From NCBI GenBank assembly GCA_944324625.1, contig CALUWZ010000057.1, forward strand, positions 1 through 10,164: DNA of 10,164 nt. Reading direction: 5' to 3'. This document shows, one piece after another, positions 4,746 through 10,164 of the stretch. This DNA comes from an uncultured Mailhella sp. (GTDB lineage: Bacteria; Desulfobacterota; Desulfovibrionia; Desulfovibrionales; Desulfovibrionaceae). Under the pieces are notes generated by a model, which did not search any database, was not told where the DNA came from, and saw only the letters and a program-made list of their open reading frames with translations. The number at the start of each line of letters is the position of its first letter. The stretch's first letter is position 1. The translations under genes were made by a program, and so were the position numbers.

Positions 4746-5249
4746 TTATTCCATAATTTCCTTAAAAGCAAGAGCAAAAGTTTTTTGCATAGTTTCAAGC
4801 CGTTCCGGAATAAGGCGCACATCGGCAACAACGGCAATAAATTGAGAATCTCCCTCCCAGCGCGGAACAAGATGGCCATGCAGATGATCGGCAATGCCCG
4901 CACCTGCGGCTTTGCCGAGATTTATGCCCATATTTATCCCGTCACAGCGGCAAACTTTTCTCAGCGCTTTGCAGGAAATGTTCACAAGCTCCATGAAGTC
5001 GCTGCGTTCTTCTTCCGCAAGGTCTGTAATATCCATAACGTGACGGTACGGAATAACCATTAAATGCCCTGCCGCATAAGGATAACGGTTCAGCATGACA
5101 AAGCAGTGCTTTCCCTTATATACAACAAGACGCTCACTGTCCTTTTGAGTCAGTTCCCCGCCCCAGTCCTCAAGGCAGAACACACAGCCCTTATGTTCTT
5201 TTTGGGAAAGAATATATTCCATGCGCCACGGTGCCCACATATTTTCCAT
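4746..5249 (-). CDS. HIT-family nucleotide hydrolase or phosphorylase
   Basis: A 167-residue soluble protein of the histidine-triad superfamily. The catalytic motif reads HLHGHLV, with His122, His124 and His126, the middle of which would take the nucleotidyl group. An N-terminal CVFC pair (Cys22, Cys25) together with His61 or His70 suggests the structural zinc site found in one branch of the family. The start WAPWRMEYI followed by CxxC is characteristic of the Fhit/Ap4A-type bacterial HIT proteins I know from delta-proteobacteria and actinobacteria. The likely substrates are dinucleoside polyphosphates or nucleoside phosphoramidates, but the exact one cannot be read from the sequence. The ATG at 5249 has GGAAGG upstream with seven-base spacing. 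It is the first gene of the minus-strand group leading to mutS and diverges from the plus-strand OB-like gene. Confidence 0.9.
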   Translation of the reverse strand: MENMWAPWRMEYILSQKEHKGCVFCLEDWGGELTQKDSERLVVYKGKHCFVMLNRYPYAAGHLMVIPYRHVMDITDLAEEERSDFMELVNISCKALRKVCRCDGINMGINLGKAAGAGIADHLHGHLVPRWEGDSQFIAVVADVRLIPERLETMQKTFALAFKEIME

Positions 5250-5416
5250 ACACGTACCTTCCTGTTCAGAAACGATTAAATTTTATTGACGATATGCAGT
5301 CGTCATATAAAAAAGCATAGCAAAATTTTACACAAAAATAAATTGTGAAAAGCTTGACAAAATAAAAAAAAATATCCACAAATATAAAAACTTTCAATTC
5401 AAAGGAATGGCTTTTC
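5250..5416. promoter_or_regulatory. Divergent promoter region between HIT and OB-like genes
   Basis: This AT-rich 167-bp region must drive both directions. For the minus strand, TTGTGT (5330-5335) and TTTTAT (5307-5312) with a 17-bp spacer form a plausible promoter with a start near 5300. A perfect inverted repeat, TGACGA (5287-5292) and TCGTCA (5300-5305) with a 7-base loop, overlaps that start and could be an operator or a 5' UTR hairpin. For the plus strand there is an exact TTGACA at 5354-5359 but no good -10 at the right distance. No copy of the TTTAAT tandem repeat found near the PepSY genes occurs here. Confidence 0.35.
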
Positions 5417-5704
5417 ATGTCTGAAACTCAAGTTACCATAAAAGGAAGCATAGTACCGCTTTCTTTCAATGCAAGCAAATGCAAAGTTGCACTCAGAACC
5501 TTTACCAACGGCGAAGAAACCGAATACCCCATTCTTTCCAAAGGGGCAGGCATTGATTTGGTTGACATGATAAGCAATTTTGTCAGTGCAAACTGCATAC
5601 TCCAAGCCTGCGAAGAAGAAGACTGCACAAAAGTCCATATCCGTTCCTATACCATTTTGGACGAATTGGATGAAAACGACCTTTTCGGCCAAAAAGAAGA
5701 ATAA
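5417..5704 (+). CDS. Small OB-fold-like protein of unknown function
   Basis: A 95-residue cytoplasmic protein with no signal peptide or membrane segment and an acidic C-terminal tail. I do not recognise a named family. The pattern of hydrophobic stretches suggests strand (TIKGSIVPLSF), strand (KVALRTFT), strand (TEYPIL), helix (GIDLVDMI), strand (FVSANCILQAC) and strand (TKVHIRSYTIL). This is the beta-beta-beta-alpha-beta order of an OB fold; the inference rests on pattern only. Cysteines lie at about positions 22, 60, 65 and 70. The ATG at 5417 has AAAGGA ten bases upstream, a long but acceptable spacing. It ends six bases before the response regulator, so it is probably the first gene of that operon and may modulate the two-component system. 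Confidence 0.75.
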   Translation: MSETQVTIKGSIVPLSFNASKCKVALRTFTNGEETEYPILSKGAGIDLVDMISNFVSANCILQACEEEDCTKVHIRSYTILDELDENDLFGQKEE

Positions 5705-5710
5705 ATTTTC

Positions 5711-6382
5711 ATGAGAATTTTAATTGTTGAAGACGATGTTTCTTTAAACCGTCTTATCAGCGAAAAACTGAAAAAAGAACATTATACCGTCGATTCCTGC
5801 CACCTTGGCAACGAGGCTCTTGCCTATATTGACGGAGCGGAATACGATCTTATTATTCTTGACATTATGCTCCCCAATATGAGCGGTCTGGAAATTTTAA
5901 CCCATATCCGCAGCAAAAAAAACACGGTTCCTGTTTTGCTTCTGACTGCAAAAGACAGCGTGGAAGACAAAGTAACGGGCCTTGATCTCGGTGCTGACGA
6001 CTACATGGCAAAACCTTTTGCCTTTGAAGAACTTCTTGCCCGTATCCGCGTGCTTATCCGCCGCAGTTCATCGCAGAGCAGTCAGGTTTACCAAATTGCC
6101 GACCTTATGGTAAACGACAAAACCAAAACAGTTACCCGCAGCAATATTCCCATTTCCCTTTCTTCCAAAGAATTTAACATCCTTTTATATATGATTATGC
6201 ATGCCGGGCAGGTTTTGTCCAGAGAAACCCTGAACCAGCACATGTGGAATTATGATTATGAAGGAAGTTCCAATATCATTGACGTATATATCCGTTATTT
6301 GCGCAAAAAAATTGACGAAGGACACGAAAAAAAACTCATTCATACCATACGCGGACAAGGATATGTAATCCGTGAAGAATAA
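5711..6382 (+). CDS. OmpR/PhoB-family response regulator
   Basis: A 223-residue two-domain regulator. The receiver domain (about 1-115) has the acidic pocket Glu7-Asp8-Asp9, phosphoacceptor Asp51 in LIILDIMLPNMSG, Thr79 and Lys101 (in KPF). The C-terminal winged helix (about 125-221) carries SSKEFNILLYMI, the recognition-helix region SNIIDVYIRYLRKKID and the wing HTIRGQGYVI. This is the QseB/PmrA/CusR type of OmpR-family regulator. Such proteins usually bind as dimers to direct repeats with 11-bp periodicity, exactly the kind of repeat found three times downstream in this window. The gene begins six bases after the OB-like gene and overlaps the kinase gene by 11 bp, so the three are probably translated from one mRNA. 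All key residues are present. The specific ortholog cannot be named with confidence. Confidence 0.96.
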   Translation: MRILIVEDDVSLNRLISEKLKKEHYTVDSCHLGNEALAYIDGAEYDLIILDIMLPNMSGLEILTHIRSKKNTVPVLLLTAKDSVEDKVTGLDLGADDYMAKPFAFEELLARIRVLIRRSSSQSSQVYQIADLMVNDKTKTVTRSNIPISLSSKEFNILLYMIMHAGQVLSRETLNQHMWNYDYEGSSNIIDVYIRYLRKKIDEGHEKKLIHTIRGQGYVIREE

Positions 6383-7733
6383 TTTTTTTTCCTTGGGCAT
6401 TAAAAGCAAACTGACAATTTTAATCAGTGCAAGCATATTTTTGCTTGTTTTCATTTCATTGACCCTGCTTGTGCTTGTAGGGAAAAACCAGCACGAAGCA
6501 CAAATCAAAAACGAACTTATCAATGTTATTGAAGACAATGCCCAAAAAATCAGAAAACGCAGCAATCTTATTGTGCTGGATTCTGCGCGTATAGTCAAAA
6601 ACAATATTTACACGTCACTGTACAATGAAAACAAAGTTTTTATGTACGGCGAAATGCCCCCTGATTTTCCGCCCTATAATGATTTTTCAGCTGGAAAACT
6701 TAAAAAAGTTGCCCAATTTTATGTTTATGACATAGCAAAAAATGTTTACGGACAAAAAATCTTTATACGGGGCATTGTGTCCGTAGCCGCCACCAAGCAG
6801 ACATTCAGCTCCCTTTTCTATCTTGTTTTGGCCACACTGCCCGTACTGGCATTTTTTACGGTTATGCTTGCCCGCTTTTTTATCCGCAAAGCCTTCAGGC
6901 CTGTGGAGCAAATTATCCACGTTGCCCAAAAAATCCAAAGCAACAAAGATTTATCCCTGCGCATTAATTTGGACAATACGGTAAAAGATGAAATTCATGC
7001 CCTTGCCCGTACTTTTGACACACTTTTTGACAGTCTTGAACAGGCATTTATCAAAGAAAAACAATTTACTTCCGACGCATCCCACGAAATACGCACGCCC
7101 GCAAGCGTTATTATCGCACAATGCGAACTGGCCCTTGAAAATGCCGAAAACGAGCAAAACAAAGAAGCTCTGCGCACAATTTTATGGCATGCGCAGAAAA
7201 TGTCTCAAATGACAAGCCAGCTTTTGCTGCTGACCAAGGCAGAACACTGCACGGAAATTTTGGAGAACGAAGAAATAAATTTAAGTGAACTTGCGGAAAT
7301 CATTGCCGAACAGCAGCAGGAAGAAGCAGAAGAAAAAGGACTTTCCCTCACCTATTCCATTCAGGACAATATTTTTGTCACCGGCGACCCGACGCTTCTG
7401 ACAAGCGCCCTCATAAACCTTTTTTCCAATGCAATAAAATACAACAAAAAAGACGGCAAAATCAACTTTACCCTGACCCAAACGGACAATTTGATTCACG
7501 GCAGAATTTCCGATACGGGCATAGGCATTTCAGAAGAAAATCTTCCAAAAATATGGGAACGCTTTTTTCAGGCCGACAAGGCGCGCAGCAAAAAGCCGGG
7601 TGAATATTACGGAACAGGCCTCGGCCTGCCGCTGGTAAAGTGGATAATAGAAGCCCACGGCGGAACTGTTGACGCATCATCCTCTGTCAACAAAGGCACA
7701 ATTTTTCATTTTACCCTGCCGCCAAAAAAATAA
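6372..7733 (+). CDS. Membrane sensor histidine kinase (QseC/PmrB-like architecture)
   Basis: A 453-residue kinase, partner of the preceding regulator. Membrane helix 1 spans about 14-36 and helix 2 about 148-171, enclosing a periplasmic sensor region of about 110 residues that I do not recognise. A HAMP segment (about 172-226, with PVEQI) leads to the HisKA domain, with phosphoacceptor His238 in DASHEIRTPASVI. The ATPase domain has the N box (Asn349, Asn353), G1 box DTGIGI (381-386), F box WERFFQ and G2 box GTGLGL (414-419). I chose the GTG at 6372 because it gives the full first membrane helix, and AAGGA lies ten bases upstream. No later ATG would keep that helix. The gene overlaps the regulator by 11 bp. 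No terminator follows it; an operator-like repeat starts within four bases of its stop codon. Confidence 0.95.
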   Translation: MKNNFFSLGIKSKLTILISASIFLLVFISLTLLVLVGKNQHEAQIKNELINVIEDNAQKIRKRSNLIVLDSARIVKNNIYTSLYNENKVFMYGEMPPDFPPYNDFSAGKLKKVAQFYVYDIAKNVYGQKIFIRGIVSVAATKQTFSSLFYLVLATLPVLAFFTVMLARFFIRKAFRPVEQIIHVAQKIQSNKDLSLRINLDNTVKDEIHALARTFDTLFDSLEQAFIKEKQFTSDASHEIRTPASVIIAQCELALENAENEQNKEALRTILWHAQKMSQMTSQLLLLTKAEHCTEILENEEINLSELAEIIAEQQQEEAEEKGLSLTYSIQDNIFVTGDPTLLTSALINLFSNAIKYNKKDGKINFTLTQTDNLIHGRISDTGIGISEENLPKIWERFFQADKARSKKPGEYYGTGLGLPLVKWIIEAHGGTVDASSSVNKGTIFHFTLPPKK

Positions 7734-7736
7734 TAT

Positions 7737-7769
7737 TTTAATCTTTCTTTAATTTTTCTCCATTATAAC
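7737..7769 (+). promoter_or_regulatory. PmrA/QseB-type tandem box and promoter P1
   Basis: Half-sites TTTAAT at 7737-7742 and TTTAAT at 7748-7753 are separated by CTTTC, giving an 11-bp period. This matches the published PmrA/BasR consensus YTTAAK-N5-YTTAAK. A -10-like TATAAC lies at 7764-7769, ten bases after the second half-site. The -35 position (7741-7746) would read ATCTTT, a poor match to TTGACA, as expected for an activator-dependent promoter. The predicted start is near 7776. It is the distal of two such promoters before the first PepSY gene. The likely regulator is the adjacent OmpR-family protein (inference). Confidence 0.6.
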
Positions 7770-7776
7770 CCTTTCC

Positions 7777-7830
7777 ATGGACAACAAAAAAGGAAGCCAA
7801 AAAACTTCCGGACACCAAAACAAAAATTAA
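7777..7830 (+). CDS. Possible 17-codon leader peptide at the P1 start
   Basis: An ATG at 7777 opens a short frame that ends with TAA at 7828-7830 and would encode a hydrophilic Lys/Gln/Asn-rich peptide. The predicted P1 transcription start is at about 7776, so any translation would be essentially leaderless. There is no Shine-Dalgarno site. A weak 5-bp hairpin (GGAAG 7792-7796, CTTCC 7805-7809) lies inside it. A frame of this length is easily chance, so this is recorded as a possibility only. Confidence 0.12.
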   Translation: MDNKKGSQKTSGHQNKN

Positions 7831-7833
7831 AAT

Positions 7834-7866
7834 TTTAATGTTTCCTTAATCTTCAGATTGTATAAA
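7834..7866 (+). promoter_or_regulatory. PmrA/QseB-type tandem box and promoter P2
   Basis: Half-sites TTTAAT at 7834-7839 and CTTAAT at 7845-7850 are separated by GTTTC, again with an 11-bp period. A strong -10-like TATAAA at 7861-7866 begins ten bases after the second half-site, as in P1. The -35 position would read ATGTTT. Transcription from about 7873 would leave a 5' UTR of roughly 26 bases containing the TAAGGAG ribosome site of the first PepSY gene. The first half-site also forms the right arm of a 14-bp AT palindrome at 7826-7839. Confidence 0.65.
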
Positions 7867-7898
7867 AGAATTAACGAAACGCAATAAGGAGAAAAATT

Positions 7899-8435
7899 AT
7901 GAAAAAGTCTACTCTCATCGCTTCCATGACTCTCGGTTTTGCATGCATGTTTACAGCAGGCAGCGCAATGGCGCAAATTTCTTTGGAACAGGCAAAACAA
8001 ATTGTTTTGCAGCATGCAGGCGTAAATGCCAATGAAGCAGGCTTTATTCAAATCAAACAAGATATGGATGACGGCATTAATGAATACGAAATTGAATTCT
8101 GGAAAGGCAATACCGAATATGAATATTCCGTCAATGCTGACAACGGCCAAATTCTTTCTCATAAACAGGAAATAAAGCAAAATGCCGTCAATATCCCCCA
8201 AGTCCAGCAAATGCCGAATCAGCAAGCCCTTATCGGCAATCAAAAGGCTGTGGAAATCGCACTGAACCATGCAAAAGTCAGCCAAGACCAAACCCGCCGC
8301 CTGAACTGCTACCAAGAATTTGACGACGGCAGAGCCGTATACAAAGTTGAATTCTGGAAAGAATACACCGAATACGACTATGAAATCGATGCCGTAACCG
8401 GAACTGTCATCGAATTTGATGCAGAACATAACTAA
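7899..8435 (+). CDS. Exported protein with two PepSY domains (PepSY 1)
   Basis: A 178-residue protein with a clear Sec signal peptide: MKK start, hydrophobic core about 5-20, and cleavage after Ala25 in AMA-Q. The mature part is two PepSY domains, about 27-90 and 112-176. Each has a helix ending in QHA or NHA, then an Asp-Asp-Gly turn (57-59 and 142-144), then paired strands and the typical end NADNGQIL or IDAVTGTVI. The protein is strongly acidic and is expected in the periplasm. PepSY domains occur in protease propeptides, YpeB and many small envelope proteins, with proposed inhibitory or regulatory roles; no enzyme activity is implied. The start is fixed by TAAGGAG seven bases upstream. 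It follows the two tandem boxed promoters and is coupled to the next gene through TAATG. Confidence 0.92.
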   Translation: MKKSTLIASMTLGFACMFTAGSAMAQISLEQAKQIVLQHAGVNANEAGFIQIKQDMDDGINEYEIEFWKGNTEYEYSVNADNGQILSHKQEIKQNAVNIPQVQQMPNQQALIGNQKAVEIALNHAKVSQDQTRRLNCYQEFDDGRAVYKVEFWKEYTEYDYEIDAVTGTVIEFDAEHN

Positions 8436-8743
8436 TGAACAAAAACAGCTTTCTTCCCTGTTCCTTGCGGACAATCCCTTTTGCCGCAAGGAACATTTCA
8501 TACCTCTCTTTGGAAAAAGCCCGAGAAATCGTACTGAAACGCGCCAAAAAACTTTCCGTGGAGCTGTCGGAAATACGCATTACCCACCTTTTTAAAAATG
8601 GACAGGTAATTTACTGTTTCACCCTAAAAACCATAGAACAAACAGCACAAACCATTTCATGCCAACTGGATGCAATATCCGGAGAAATTCTTTCTTTTTC
8701 CGCACATCCGCTGCAAGGAGACTGCCATGACAAAATCCCCTAA
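8435..8743 (+). CDS. Single PepSY-domain protein lacking a signal peptide (PepSY 2)
   Basis: A 102-residue protein whose ATG shares a base with the TAA of the preceding gene (TAATG), so translation is probably coupled; it has no obvious ribosome site of its own. Residues about 24-90 form one PepSY domain: LSLEKAREIVLKRA helix, strands, and the end LDAISGEIL. The usual Asp-Asp-Gly turn is replaced by Lys54-Asn55-Gly56. The first 24 residues are not a signal peptide, which is odd since the relatives here are exported. The DNA for residues 9-21 contains a perfect 12-bp inverted repeat. Either the protein is cytoplasmic, or it is a decaying copy, or the real start is later, although no later ATG exists before the domain. 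The end overlaps the next gene by 17 bp. Confidence 0.7.
   Translation: MNKNSFLPCSLRTIPFAARNISYLSLEKAREIVLKRAKKLSVELSEIRITHLFKNGQVIYCFTLKTIEQTAQTISCQLDAISGEILSFSAHPLQGDCHDKIP
8459..8495 (+). repeat. 12-bp perfect inverted repeat (RNA hairpin) inside PepSY 2
   Basis: TGTTCCTTGCGG at 8459-8470 and CCGCAAGGAACA at 8484-8495 are exact reverse complements with a 13-base loop. In the mRNA this would be a stable stem beginning 24 bases after the PepSY 2 start codon. Only three T residues follow, so it is not a good intrinsic terminator. It could reduce expression of the downstream genes, mark an RNA processing site, or be a protein-binding site. Confidence 0.6.
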
Positions 8744-9077
8744 CGCATATTTTTGCTCCTCCTGCAAAAAAGTTTTTTTTCTGCCCGCCAAAAGCAAAAC
8801 CGTGTGTCCCGAATGTCGGCAAAAACTTCTTTCTTTGGACTGCTCAGAAGAAGAATTCCAAAACTTTACCCAAGAAGAACAGGAAATTATTATTGAATCC
8901 AATGCATTGCGGGAACAAAAAATAAATGAGCGTCTGCAGTACGCCATAGAAAACCCCGATGCGGACCATGCCAAAATTTTACAGAAAATAGCATCTGATG
9001 CTGCCATAACCAAATGGAGCGTCATTGGCTTCGGTGTCCTTTTTCTTCTTTTTTATATATTGGAAGAATTTTTCTAA
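8727..9077 (+). CDS. Zinc-ribbon protein with C-terminal membrane anchor
   Basis: A 116-residue protein of no family I can name. The N-terminus carries two CxxC knuckles, Cys10/Cys13 and Cys27/Cys30, spaced 13 residues apart, typical of a zinc ribbon. The middle (about 39-92) is acidic and helical in appearance. The C-terminal 20 residues (about 96-112) form one hydrophobic helix followed by EEFF, so the protein is probably tail-anchored in the inner membrane with the ribbon in the cytoplasm. I chose the ATG at 8727 rather than an earlier in-frame ATG at 8670 because AAGGAG lies six bases upstream and the earlier start has no ribosome site. It overlaps PepSY 2 by 17 bp and is the last gene before the terminator, so it belongs to the PepSY operon. 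Its function is unknown. Confidence 0.8.
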   Translation: MTKSPNAYFCSSCKKVFFLPAKSKTVCPECRQKLLSLDCSEEEFQNFTQEEQEIIIESNALREQKINERLQYAIENPDADHAKILQKIASDAAITKWSVIGFGVLFLLFYILEEFF

Positions 9078-9090
9078 TCATGCACATCAT

Positions 9091-9120
9091 AAAAAACCCG
9101 CTGCCTCGGCGGGTTTTTTT
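9091..9120 (+). terminator. Rho-independent terminator
   Basis: A run of six A (9091-9096), stem CCCGC (9097-9101), 7-base loop, stem GCGGG (9109-9113) and seven T (9114-9120). The A and T runs can extend the stem. It starts 14 bases after the stop of the zinc-ribbon gene and ends the first PepSY operon. The symmetry would also allow termination of minus-strand transcripts. Confidence 0.92.
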
Positions 9121-9152
9121 ATATATGACAACGTATTTTTAAATATTGCATT

Positions 9153-9185
9153 TTTAATCTTTCTTTAATTTTCATTTTGTACTGT
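9153..9185 (+). promoter_or_regulatory. PmrA/QseB-type tandem box and promoter P3
   Basis: Half-sites TTTAAT at 9153-9158 and TTTAAT at 9164-9169 are separated by CTTTC. The core is identical to P1 and the whole repeat matches YTTAAK-N5-YTTAAK. A -10-like TACTGT at 9180-9185 again begins ten bases after the second half-site, and the -35 position reads ATCTTT as in P1. The predicted start near 9192 gives a 5' UTR of about 33 bases before the second exported PepSY gene. It lies 33 bp past the terminator, so it starts a new transcription unit. Confidence 0.62.
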
Positions 9186-9224
9186 CTGTTTAACGCCAAT
9201 AAACAAACAGCAAAGGAGTTCAAT

Positions 9225-9887
9225 ATGAGCGTAAAACATACCGTAAAAATTATCACTCTGGGATCTGCCCTGTTTTTTTCCGCTCCCGTAATTTTCGGCA
9301 TGGCAGCCTATGCCGGCCAAAATCCTCAGACACAAAACCAGTTCAGTCAAAACAACGGACATACGGTACCTATGAATACCCCCTCCCCAAATCAGCTGCC
9401 CCTTAATGTTCCCAAACAGCAGCTTGGCATGATGAATGCGCAGCAGGCAAAACAAATTGCCCTGCAGCATGCAGGATTTCATGACAATCAAATCAGCTCC
9501 CTGCGCATTGAACAGGAAATGGATGACGGAAGAATGGAATTTGAAGTGGATTTTAAAAGCGGTGATTATGACTATGAATACAAAATCAACGGCAATACAG
9601 GCCAAATCCTTTTCCATTCCTTTGAAAAAAGAAGATTAAACCTTTTAGGGGTGTTCAAAAGTTCCACTCCGGACAATCTTATTCAAAGCGATTACGCTGT
9701 ACAGACAGCATTAAACCATGCAGGCTTAAAACAGCAGGATGTGGTCATGGGAAAATTTTCCTATGATTTTGACGACGGTGAACATATTTACGAAATCGGA
9801 TTTTACAAAAATTATATAGAATACCAATATGAAATAGATGCCGAAACAGGCGAAATCTATAAATGTGAAGTTGATTACCATATCTGA
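9225..9887 (+). CDS. Exported protein with linker and two PepSY domains (PepSY 3)
   Basis: A 220-residue protein with a Sec signal peptide (hydrophobic about 8-28, cleavage after Ala30 in AYA-G). A Gln/Asn/Pro-rich flexible linker, about 31-68, is not present in PepSY 1. Two PepSY domains follow, about 70-132 and 154-216, each with an Asp-Asp-Gly turn (100-102 and 183-185) and an NGNTGQIL or DAETGEIY end. The domain order matches PepSY 1: domain 1 shares AKQI-LQHAG and GQIL, and domain 2 shares ALNHA, FDDG and YEIDA. This suggests that the two genes came from duplication of a two-domain ancestor. AAAGGAG six bases before the ATG at 9225 fixes the start; an earlier in-frame ATG at 9177 is before the predicted transcription start. 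The product should be periplasmic. Its function is unknown, probably the same process as PepSY 1. Confidence 0.92.
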   Translation: MSVKHTVKIITLGSALFFSAPVIFGMAAYAGQNPQTQNQFSQNNGHTVPMNTPSPNQLPLNVPKQQLGMMNAQQAKQIALQHAGFHDNQISSLRIEQEMDDGRMEFEVDFKSGDYDYEYKINGNTGQILFHSFEKRRLNLLGVFKSSTPDNLIQSDYAVQTALNHAGLKQQDVVMGKFSYDFDDGEHIYEIGFYKNYIEYQYEIDAETGEIYKCEVDYHI

Positions 9888-9982: not shown

Positions 9983-10164
9983 ATGCAACCAGCCTTTCTT
10001 ACTCCCTTTTTATGCTGCATGCTTCTGCTTGGCACAATCCTTATGCCCGAAAATATTTTGGCCGCACCTCTGAGCCCGGACGAAGCAAGAAAAAGAGCCC
10101 TTGAACATGCTGATGTTCAGGAAAAAGAACTCAAGCACATCCAAATAAAACAAGAATATGATAA
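9983..10164 (+). CDS. Exported PepSY-domain protein, 5' part only (PepSY 4)
   Basis: The frame runs off the right edge, with 60 codons visible. The N-terminus is a signal peptide (hydrophobic about 8-20, cleavage probably after the Ala-Ala of LAAPLS). The start of a PepSY domain follows: SPDEARKRALEHA, then IQIKQEYD, matching domain 1 of PepSY 1 and 3. I prefer the ATG at 9983 because AAGGA lies seven bases upstream. An in-frame ATG at 9965 gives a more basic MKKDTIM start but has only a weak, distant GGCAGG. No tandem box or terminator lies in the 95-bp gap after PepSY 3, so the two are probably co-transcribed from P3. Confidence 0.8.
   Translation, partial: MQPAFLTPFLCCMLLLGTILMPENILAAPLSPDEARKRALEHADVQEKELKHIQIKQEYD

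Follow-up and report, generated by a model that had tools for sequence, protein, structure and literature searches.

The DNA analysed here, referred to as the window, is the entire contig C57 (10164 bases) of G000, a draft genome of an uncultured Mailhella sp. (1,801,007 bases in 237 contigs, 88.67% complete). It carries a two-component system followed by genes encoding PepSY proteins; the order on the plus strand is a 95-amino-acid (aa) open reading frame (ORF), a response regulator, a histidine kinase, PepSY protein A, PepSY-like protein B, a zinc-ribbon-like protein, a terminator, PepSY protein C and a partial PepSY-type protein D. Two direct repeats lie before A and a third before C, and the three are read here, with considerable confidence, as operators of the adjacent response regulator, from which it would activate the PepSY units. 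The sites and the genes most directly concerned are listed below, with five other congeners (G001 to G005) examined for comparison.

7737..7753, plus strand: candidate operator 1, TTTAAT-CTTTC-TTTAAT (TTTAATCTTTCTTTAAT), kept in G001, with an equivalent site in G003 and G005
7764..7769, plus strand: -10 of promoter 1, TATAAC, 10 base pairs (bp) past operator 1
7834..7850, plus strand: candidate operator 2, TTTAAT-GTTTC-CTTAAT (TTTAATGTTTCCTTAAT), kept in G001
7861..7866, plus strand: -10 of promoter 2, TATAAA, predicted start A7873
9153..9169, plus strand: candidate operator 3, TTTAAT-CTTTC-TTTAAT (TTTAATCTTTCTTTAAT), equivalent site in G001 with another spacer
9180..9185, plus strand: -10 of promoter 3, TACTGT, predicted start A9192
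5711..6382, plus strand: OmpR/PhoB-family response regulator (PF00072, 107.5 bits; PF00486, 94.5 bits)
6372..7733, plus strand: sensor histidine kinase, GTG start, HAMP-HisKA-HATPase (PF00672, PF00512, PF02518)
7899..8435, plus strand: PepSY protein A, two PepSY domains (PF03413, 62.7 bits against a cut-off of 24)
8435..8743, plus strand: PepSY-like protein B (PF03413, 20.7 bits, below the cut-off of 24)
9225..9887, plus strand: PepSY protein C, two PepSY stretches (PF03413, 57.1 bits)

At all three sites the gap between the second half-site and the -10-like hexamer is exactly 10 bp, and the -35 position (17-bp spacing) is occupied by ATCTTT, ATGTTT and ATCTTT at sites 1, 2 and 3, respectively, which are unlike TTGACA. 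If the start is placed seven bases past the -10, the first half-site covers about -39 to -34 and the second about -28 to -23, on either side of the -35 region. The base seven past the -10 is an A at sites 2 and 3, and at site 1 an A comes one base later. An earlier note on this DNA had described the three sites with their coordinates and CTTTC or GTTTC spacers, the hexamers at 7764, 7861 and 9180 each 10 bp past the second half-site, the poor match of the -35 positions to TTGACA and the lack of any further copy in the window, including the region before the regulator operon; all of this was confirmed from the sequence and by a pattern scan, in which YTTAAK-N5-YTTAAK matched these three places only and no copy was present in front of the regulator operon.

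The three matches in the window compare with 0.09 expected, and none of 200 shuffles reached three. Across the whole of G000 YTTAAK-N5-YTTAAK occurs at 6 places, while the spacer-specific pattern TTTAAT-NTTTC-YTTAAT is found at zero mismatches only at the three window sites, nowhere at one mismatch and at 13 places at two. The motif, for which the earlier note had asked whether it was scattered at random through the genome, is therefore not so scattered. At up to three mismatches there were 174 places compared to 173 for a reversed-pattern control, so the signal consists of three outlier sites and not of a genome-wide excess. When the pattern was combined with the -10 at up to one mismatch, 4 places were found, 3 of them the window sites; the reversed-pattern control also gave 4. 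The description of the regulon as local thus holds for G000 at the consensus tested, and weaker sites may exist elsewhere or in the missing part of the draft.

Sites in other genomes were scored with a matrix built from nine congeneric sites with the geometry N5, 10 bp and TANNNT. PepSY genes are scarce in the family: 11 of 149 genomes carry them, and this genus accounts for five of the 11. At least one site precedes PepSY genes in each of the four other PepSY-bearing congeners, as the earlier note had proposed to check. G001, with a kinase 75% identical to that of the window, retains the three sites, each with the N5 spacer and the 10-bp gap, the third spacer reading CTCAT; for its fourth PepSY gene no site was listed. 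In G003 and G005 (kinase 65%) a single site lies between the kinase and the first PepSY gene, and the more distant G002 (regulator 54%, kinase 32-34%) has one site before each of two neighbouring PepSY genes, while its other PepSY gene (on C7) had no site scoring at least 10 in the 3.2 kb examined. A third perfect operator with a -10 is also present in G002 (L067, 5128-5160); the roughly 900 bases between it and the regulator contain no clear gene. In G004 (L065) the regulator (78%) and kinase (62%) are kept, yet a search of this genome, 98% complete, gave no PepSY match, and the kinase has no site next to it. Among the six genomes of other genera of the family with PepSY genes, loci of about 3 kb around these genes yielded one site scoring at least 10, in G029 (L219, 1913-1945, minus strand). 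This site, CTTCAT-N5-CTTCAT-N10-TATTGT, is weak (score 10.0) and lies about 80 bases before the PepSY gene; it may represent a G+C-shifted form of the operator.

Named genome contigs were then scanned with an alignment of the congeneric kinases, which gave 80 loci; a scan with a single kinase as query gave no matches. The boundary of the orthologues was drawn by the kinase match, leaving 51 orthologue loci (L141-L193 minus L190, which belongs to the training genome G002, and L192). Regulator identity to that of the window is 47-62% on the orthologue side of the boundary and 35-44% beyond it, and the orthologue kinases are 29-44% identical. These loci, mostly from metagenome-assembled genomes, come largely from Clostridia and Spirochaetes and represent the phyla Bacillota, Spirochaetota and Synergistota. 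Using a profile built for this analysis, a PepSY gene was detected in 17 of the 51, after the kinase in 13 and before the regulator in 4. A grid of 72 spacings was applied to the regions upstream of 19 PepSY genes. The mean of the best scores was highest at N5 and 10 bp (12.86, compared to 9.18 for the next best), and 14 of the 19 regions scored at least 12 mechanically. Three more (L153, L176 and L191) reach 12 once the start is moved, by eye, downstream of the longest-ORF start, the site lying at or after that start; the remaining two are PepSY genes second in an operon, and L154 has no upstream sequence. With those two left out, every one of the 17 PepSY genes taken to be first in a unit has a site before it, the start having been placed by eye in three of them and the weakest site scoring 12.1. 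Chance AT-richness as an explanation of the repeats is rejected on the strength of this grid and of the rarity of the motif in the window and genome.

The association extends to the loci as a whole. Sites scoring at least 14, 16 and 18 were found in 38, 31 and 26 of the 51 orthologue loci (539 kb), in 3, 2 and 0 of the 25 controls, whose kinases are more distant (298 kb), and in none, at any of the three thresholds, of the loci of the 24 best other Desulfovibrionaceae regulators, which are shorter (84 kb in total). In the regulator and kinase flanks alone, a site scoring at least 14 was present in 28 of 48 orthologue loci versus 0 of 24 controls, and at 18 or above the true spacing was found in 17 of 48 flanks compared to 4 of 48 for the best wrong spacing (L161, L170, L173 and the control L202 have no adjacent regulator and were not counted, and L190 was left out). 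Moreover, 15 of the 17 PepSY-front sites have A seven bases past the -10, and 12 have C just before that position; these columns lie outside the matrix, and the binomial calculation on them took the base frequencies as 0.35 and 0.2. A score of 14 is reached at five of the nine Spirochaetota loci; Synergistota is represented by one locus. Sites scoring at least 12 also stand before the regulator gene itself in 13 loci (e.g., L155, L157, L164, L184 and L191). Among the other genes of the orthologue loci, 16 of 332 have an upstream site scoring at least 14, including non-PepSY targets; genes preceded by sites include VTC-type genes, an ApbE gene, and genes for metallo-beta-lactamase-fold and divergent exported-looking proteins. 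The operator-promoter precedes VTC-type genes upstream of the regulator in the Clostridia loci L156, L168, L172, L173, L175, L181 and L185 (assigned by Pfam in L156 and by eye in the rest), and in L172 and L185 it also precedes a gene for a metallo-beta-lactamase-fold protein. In Anaerostipes and other Lachnospiraceae (L149, L152, L165, L180 and L186) the site faces away from the regulator, towards a divergent gene; in L149, L180 and L186 the product of that gene looks exported and has no more than a Pfam match below cut-off.

The response regulator consists of a receiver and a winged-helix C-terminal domain, both above the Pfam cut-offs, which places it in the OmpR/PhoB family, and its recognition helix is SNIIDVYIRYLRKKI. 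The helix pattern DVYI[RS]YLR[KR]K was found in all 6 genus members and in 41 of 48 orthologues, with six close variants and one sequence that could not be aligned. Control regulators mostly carry RTVDVHIKRLREKI or a helix near it. Of the 24 other Desulfovibrionaceae regulators, 18 have PQTN..DVH or DVL helices, another three carry DVH helices of a different kind, and the last three, including L231, are of the VYI-/VYV-type. In a regulator tree of 79 rows, rooted on an assumed outgroup and built without PmrA or QseB sequences, the site clade is split from the other Desulfovibrionaceae with support of 98/91. Five congeners group with three Clostridia (97/80), and since G002 stands elsewhere within the site clade, the system may have been acquired twice in this genus. 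We infer that the regulator, kinase and PepSY partner are of clostridial type and probably entered the genus by horizontal transfer together with their operators. A 504-kb plasmid of Pusillibacter faecalis, typed as conjugative, has the same regulator-kinase-PepSY order (L256, 885-4965), with TTTCATGTTCATTTCAT, 10 bp and TAGGAT between the kinase and PepSY genes (score 11.2), and is a possible vehicle of spread. The other plasmid PepSY match, in Vescimonas, adjoins a sigma factor and does not belong to this system.

The window also contains the following features.

5417..5704, plus strand: 95-aa ORF at the head of the regulator operon, without a match in Pfam or NCBIfam
7777..7830, plus strand: possible leaderless ORF of 17 codons, with its ATG close to the start predicted for promoter 1
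8727..9077, plus strand: 116-aa protein with an N-terminal zinc-ribbon-like part (PF07191 below cut-off) and a C-terminal hydrophobic segment
9091..9119, plus strand: hairpin (11-bp arms, 7-base loop) and T run, probably terminating the first PepSY unit
9983..10164, plus strand: start of PepSY-type gene D, cut by the contig end, its 60 residues 40% identical to the product of G001's fourth PepSY gene

The 95-aa ORF is 75-89% identical in four congeners and was not found in the G002 stretch. For the ORF at 7777, ATGGAC occurs at the same position in G001, G003 and G005 and the remaining residues are little conserved; this leaderless ORF is a weak possibility on which the reading of the operators does not depend. 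The hairpin was recognised from the sequence and is absent from the output of the promoter scan. Gene D has no operator in front, and its 60 residues alone have no Pfam match. A further PepSY match in G000, on another contig (L129, C64:8767-8949, minus strand), may be the remainder of gene D; no site scoring at least 10 was found within the 1.8 kb examined there. The N termini of the PepSY proteins look signal-peptide-like by eye. The periplasmic domain of the kinase spans approximately residues 36-137 (single-chain model, mean pLDDT 76.5, pTM 0.43), and among the 50 matches listed by a fold search, mostly histidine kinase cores, nothing useful on the sensor domain was found. An Rfam search of the window gave no match.

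By its gene neighbourhood the system is a DbfQRS-like PepSY/two-component module, with a CiaR-like promoter geometry. According to PMC12714742, neighbourhoods of this kind (PepSY, response regulator and kinase) are enriched more than 60-fold across phyla, the PepSY protein DbfQ binds the sensor domain of DbfS and shifts the kinase to phosphatase activity, and examples include Vibrio cholerae DbfQRS and P. aeruginosa PA2658-BqsSR. As in DbfQRS, one or more PepSY genes lie within four genes of the regulator and kinase in the window, in G001, G002, G003 and G005 and in 17 loci outside the genus. Unlike DbfQRS, the PepSY genes here form units of their own with their own operators, lie downstream of the kinase and occur in several copies, two of the PepSY proteins have two domains each, and the regulator operon is without a site. 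A further parallel is given by Matson et al. 2017 (PMC5636140), in which a Vibrio kinase controls the conserved periplasmic protein VisP/YgiW.

The closest parallel in promoter layout is CiaR of streptococci. PMC3091779 describes its promoters as TTTAAG-N5-TTTAAG with the -10 ten bases after, the start taken at seven past the -10 and a preferred C before the start; CiaR activates from this position in the -35 region, the final G of TTTAAG is extremely important, and its targets include small RNA genes. The repeat spacing and the 10-base gap to the -10 are identical at the window sites, and the CiaR recognition helix VVEVYVSKVRKKL resembles VVDVYIRYLRKKI, a likeness at the level of the helix. 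Unlike in CiaR promoters, all 6 window half-sites end in T, reading TTTAAT and not TTTAAG (or CTTAAT at one half-site). In the open-access literature searched, no paper on both PepSY and CiaRH was found. BqsR, an activator whose sites read TTAAG-N6-TTAAG with the downstream pentamer overlapping the -35 (PMC4682146), shares the 11-bp period of direct TTAA-type repeats, and BqsRS has PepSY neighbours (PMC12714742); the G is absent at all three window sites, which therefore do not match the BqsR operator. The available portion of the C. difficile RR_1586 paper contains TTAAG-type repeats and no PepSY, and the main text of a paper mapping Desulfovibrio vulgaris regulators contains neither PepSY nor TTTAA. 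The best match to the regulator in a plasmid collection is Fusobacterium CarR (54%), encoded in an operon PepSY-carR-carS (L257, 3494-5990). The CarR helix is NIIDVLIKNIRKKI (DVLIKNIRKKI), unlike that of the window, no site lies before the CarR-linked PepSY gene, and none of the 40 tabulated 17-bp AT-rich CarR ChIP-seq boxes reads TTTAAT-N5-TTTAAT on either strand (by eye). In the sequence carRS lies directly behind a PepSY gene; PepSY is mentioned 0 times in the main text of the CarSR paper.

The earlier note had likened the repeats to those of PmrA/BasR and QseB. At the level of the DNA the half-sites fit YTTAAK-N5-YTTAAK, and direct TTAA-type repeats with an 11-bp period are shared with PmrA/BasR (the PmrA spacing being that of the earlier note). 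At the level of the protein, kinship with PmrA or QseB is rejected: the regulator scored 217.9 bits compared to an NCBIfam cut-off of 330 for PmrA and 163.7 bits compared to 345 for QseB. In PmrA, which binds both halves head to tail, the residues H193, H195, N196 and E199 are proposed for specificity (PMC3973317); in an alignment by eye on N188, E/D191 and R198, these are Y, R, Y and K in the window's regulator. A CusR/CopR/SilR heavy-metal regulator (cztR_silR_copR) was also considered and rejected (235.1 bits compared to a cut-off of 279.2). That the system is an orthologue of PmrA/BasR or QseB with their known regulon logic is thus extremely improbable, despite the fit of the half-sites and a full-length match to the PmrA model, considering the scores below cut-off, the four differing specificity residues and a tree (itself without PmrA and QseB) that places the regulator with Clostridia. 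Only slightly less improbable is a reading without a dedicated regulator, in which the repeats are either promoter DNA that is rich in A and T (UP-like or bent) or the product of a duplication of upstream regions. The DNA is AT-rich, and sites 1 and 3 are identical, which makes a duplication together with the PepSY genes plausible; against this, the halves and both spacings are kept while the spacer letters vary (CTCAT at site 3 of G001), the same geometry recurs in other phyla and less so at neighbouring spacings, and there is no genome-wide excess of lookalikes.

The sites could also belong to another OmpR-family regulator, with the neighbour being a bystander. The genome has 20 further matches to the regulator at E 0.001 or better (21 in total), and L231 shows that a related regulator with a similar helix exists elsewhere in the family. 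We nevertheless consider this quite unlikely, given that in other phyla the site adjoins orthologues of this very regulator, often directly upstream of its gene, that it is not found beside the 24 other Desulfovibrionaceae regulators, and that at a score of at least 18 it is found in 0 of 25 control loci. Somewhat more weight, though still little, is given to the regulator binding the sites as a repressor, with the PepSY genes released on dephosphorylation. Response regulators are capable of both signs, and Fusobacterium CarR represses radD and activates fruRBA (CarSR paper). For activation speak the location of the sites in the -35 region, ahead of the -10, from which CiaR and BqsR activate, and the lack of a -35 of their own in these promoters, since the polymerase would then need help.

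Several observations weigh against activation by the adjacent regulator, or against parts of this reading. CarR is 54% identical to the regulator and yet uses another box, so kinship alone fixes neither operator nor sign. The regulator of L231 (G125, a member of the Desulfovibrionaceae outside the genus, 48% identical) has a very close helix (NVVNVYIRYLRTKI), and its locus has no site scoring at least 12. Of the 51 orthologue loci, 13 are without a site scoring at least 14. The spacing (5,12) gives 28, 20 and 6 of the 51 loci at thresholds of 14, 16 and 18, which probably reflects TATA-like -10 elements matching at a shift of two bases; the remaining ones of the eight neighbouring spacings give at most 15, 9 and 1. 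In the flanks, 26 of 48 loci score at least 14 with the most successful of the eight wrong spacings. The start signal is weaker at the 27 other sites scoring at least 16, where the base seven past the -10 is A in 17, A is as common nearby and T precedes in 19. The -10 hexamers of the window are themselves weak (TACTGT, TATAAC), and a generic sigma-70 scan of 5200-9300 returned 11 promoters versus 9.3 in shuffles, none of the three being among them. The transfer rests on one gene tree with an assumed outgroup, and loss in the other Desulfovibrionaceae is an alternative to it.

With activation by the adjacent regulator as the preferred reading, we infer the following course of binding, activation and feedback from what was computed directly, namely the sites, their geometry and conservation, their tie to one type of regulator and the tree. 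The regulator, phosphorylated by the kinase, would bind TTTAAT-N5-TTTAAT at about -39 to -23 as a head-to-tail dimer, substitute for the missing -35 and recruit RNA polymerase to the -10 exactly 10 bp downstream; such recruitment is expected given that CiaR activates from the same position and that the downstream pentamer of BqsR overlaps the -35. Unit 1, encoding A, B and the zinc-ribbon protein, would be transcribed from the tandem promoters 1 and 2, and unit 2, encoding C, from promoter 3. Since the regulator operon has no site, it should not be self-activated in this genome. By analogy with DbfQ, the secreted PepSY proteins, which would act beyond the cytoplasmic membrane, may report on or restrain the periplasmic domain of the kinase, and such feedback on the kinase is the most likely purpose of the arrangement; if DbfQ-like control of the kinase holds here, the three operators would close a negative loop.

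Modules of PepSY proteins and two-component systems are widespread, as described in PMC12714742, and little was found on what switches the PepSY genes on; the open-access literature searched contained no report of this operator for PepSY modules. In this genome the adjacent two-component regulator very probably works three PepSY switches, and a switch of the same spacing adjoins the same kind of regulator in distant gut bacteria. One operator of exact geometry can now be given for a regulator clade in four phyla, and comparison of the sequences suggests that operators transferred from one phylum to another retain their exact base-pair spacing. A broader proposal, which we put forward tentatively and regard as doubtful, is that the regulator, the kinase, secreted PepSY proteins serving as its periplasmic brake and fixed-geometry operator-promoters form a cassette moving as a working unit across gut Bacillota, Spirochaetota, Synergistota and Desulfobacterota; each recipient would gain a closed negative-feedback loop needing only its own housekeeping polymerase, and the near-invariant helix DVYIRYLRKKI could be read as a code for TTTAAT-N5-TTTAAT. 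With one operator geometry given for the clade, the regulons of its members become predictable from sequence and open to experiment in relatives that are in culture, Anaerostipes butyraticus (L149) among them.

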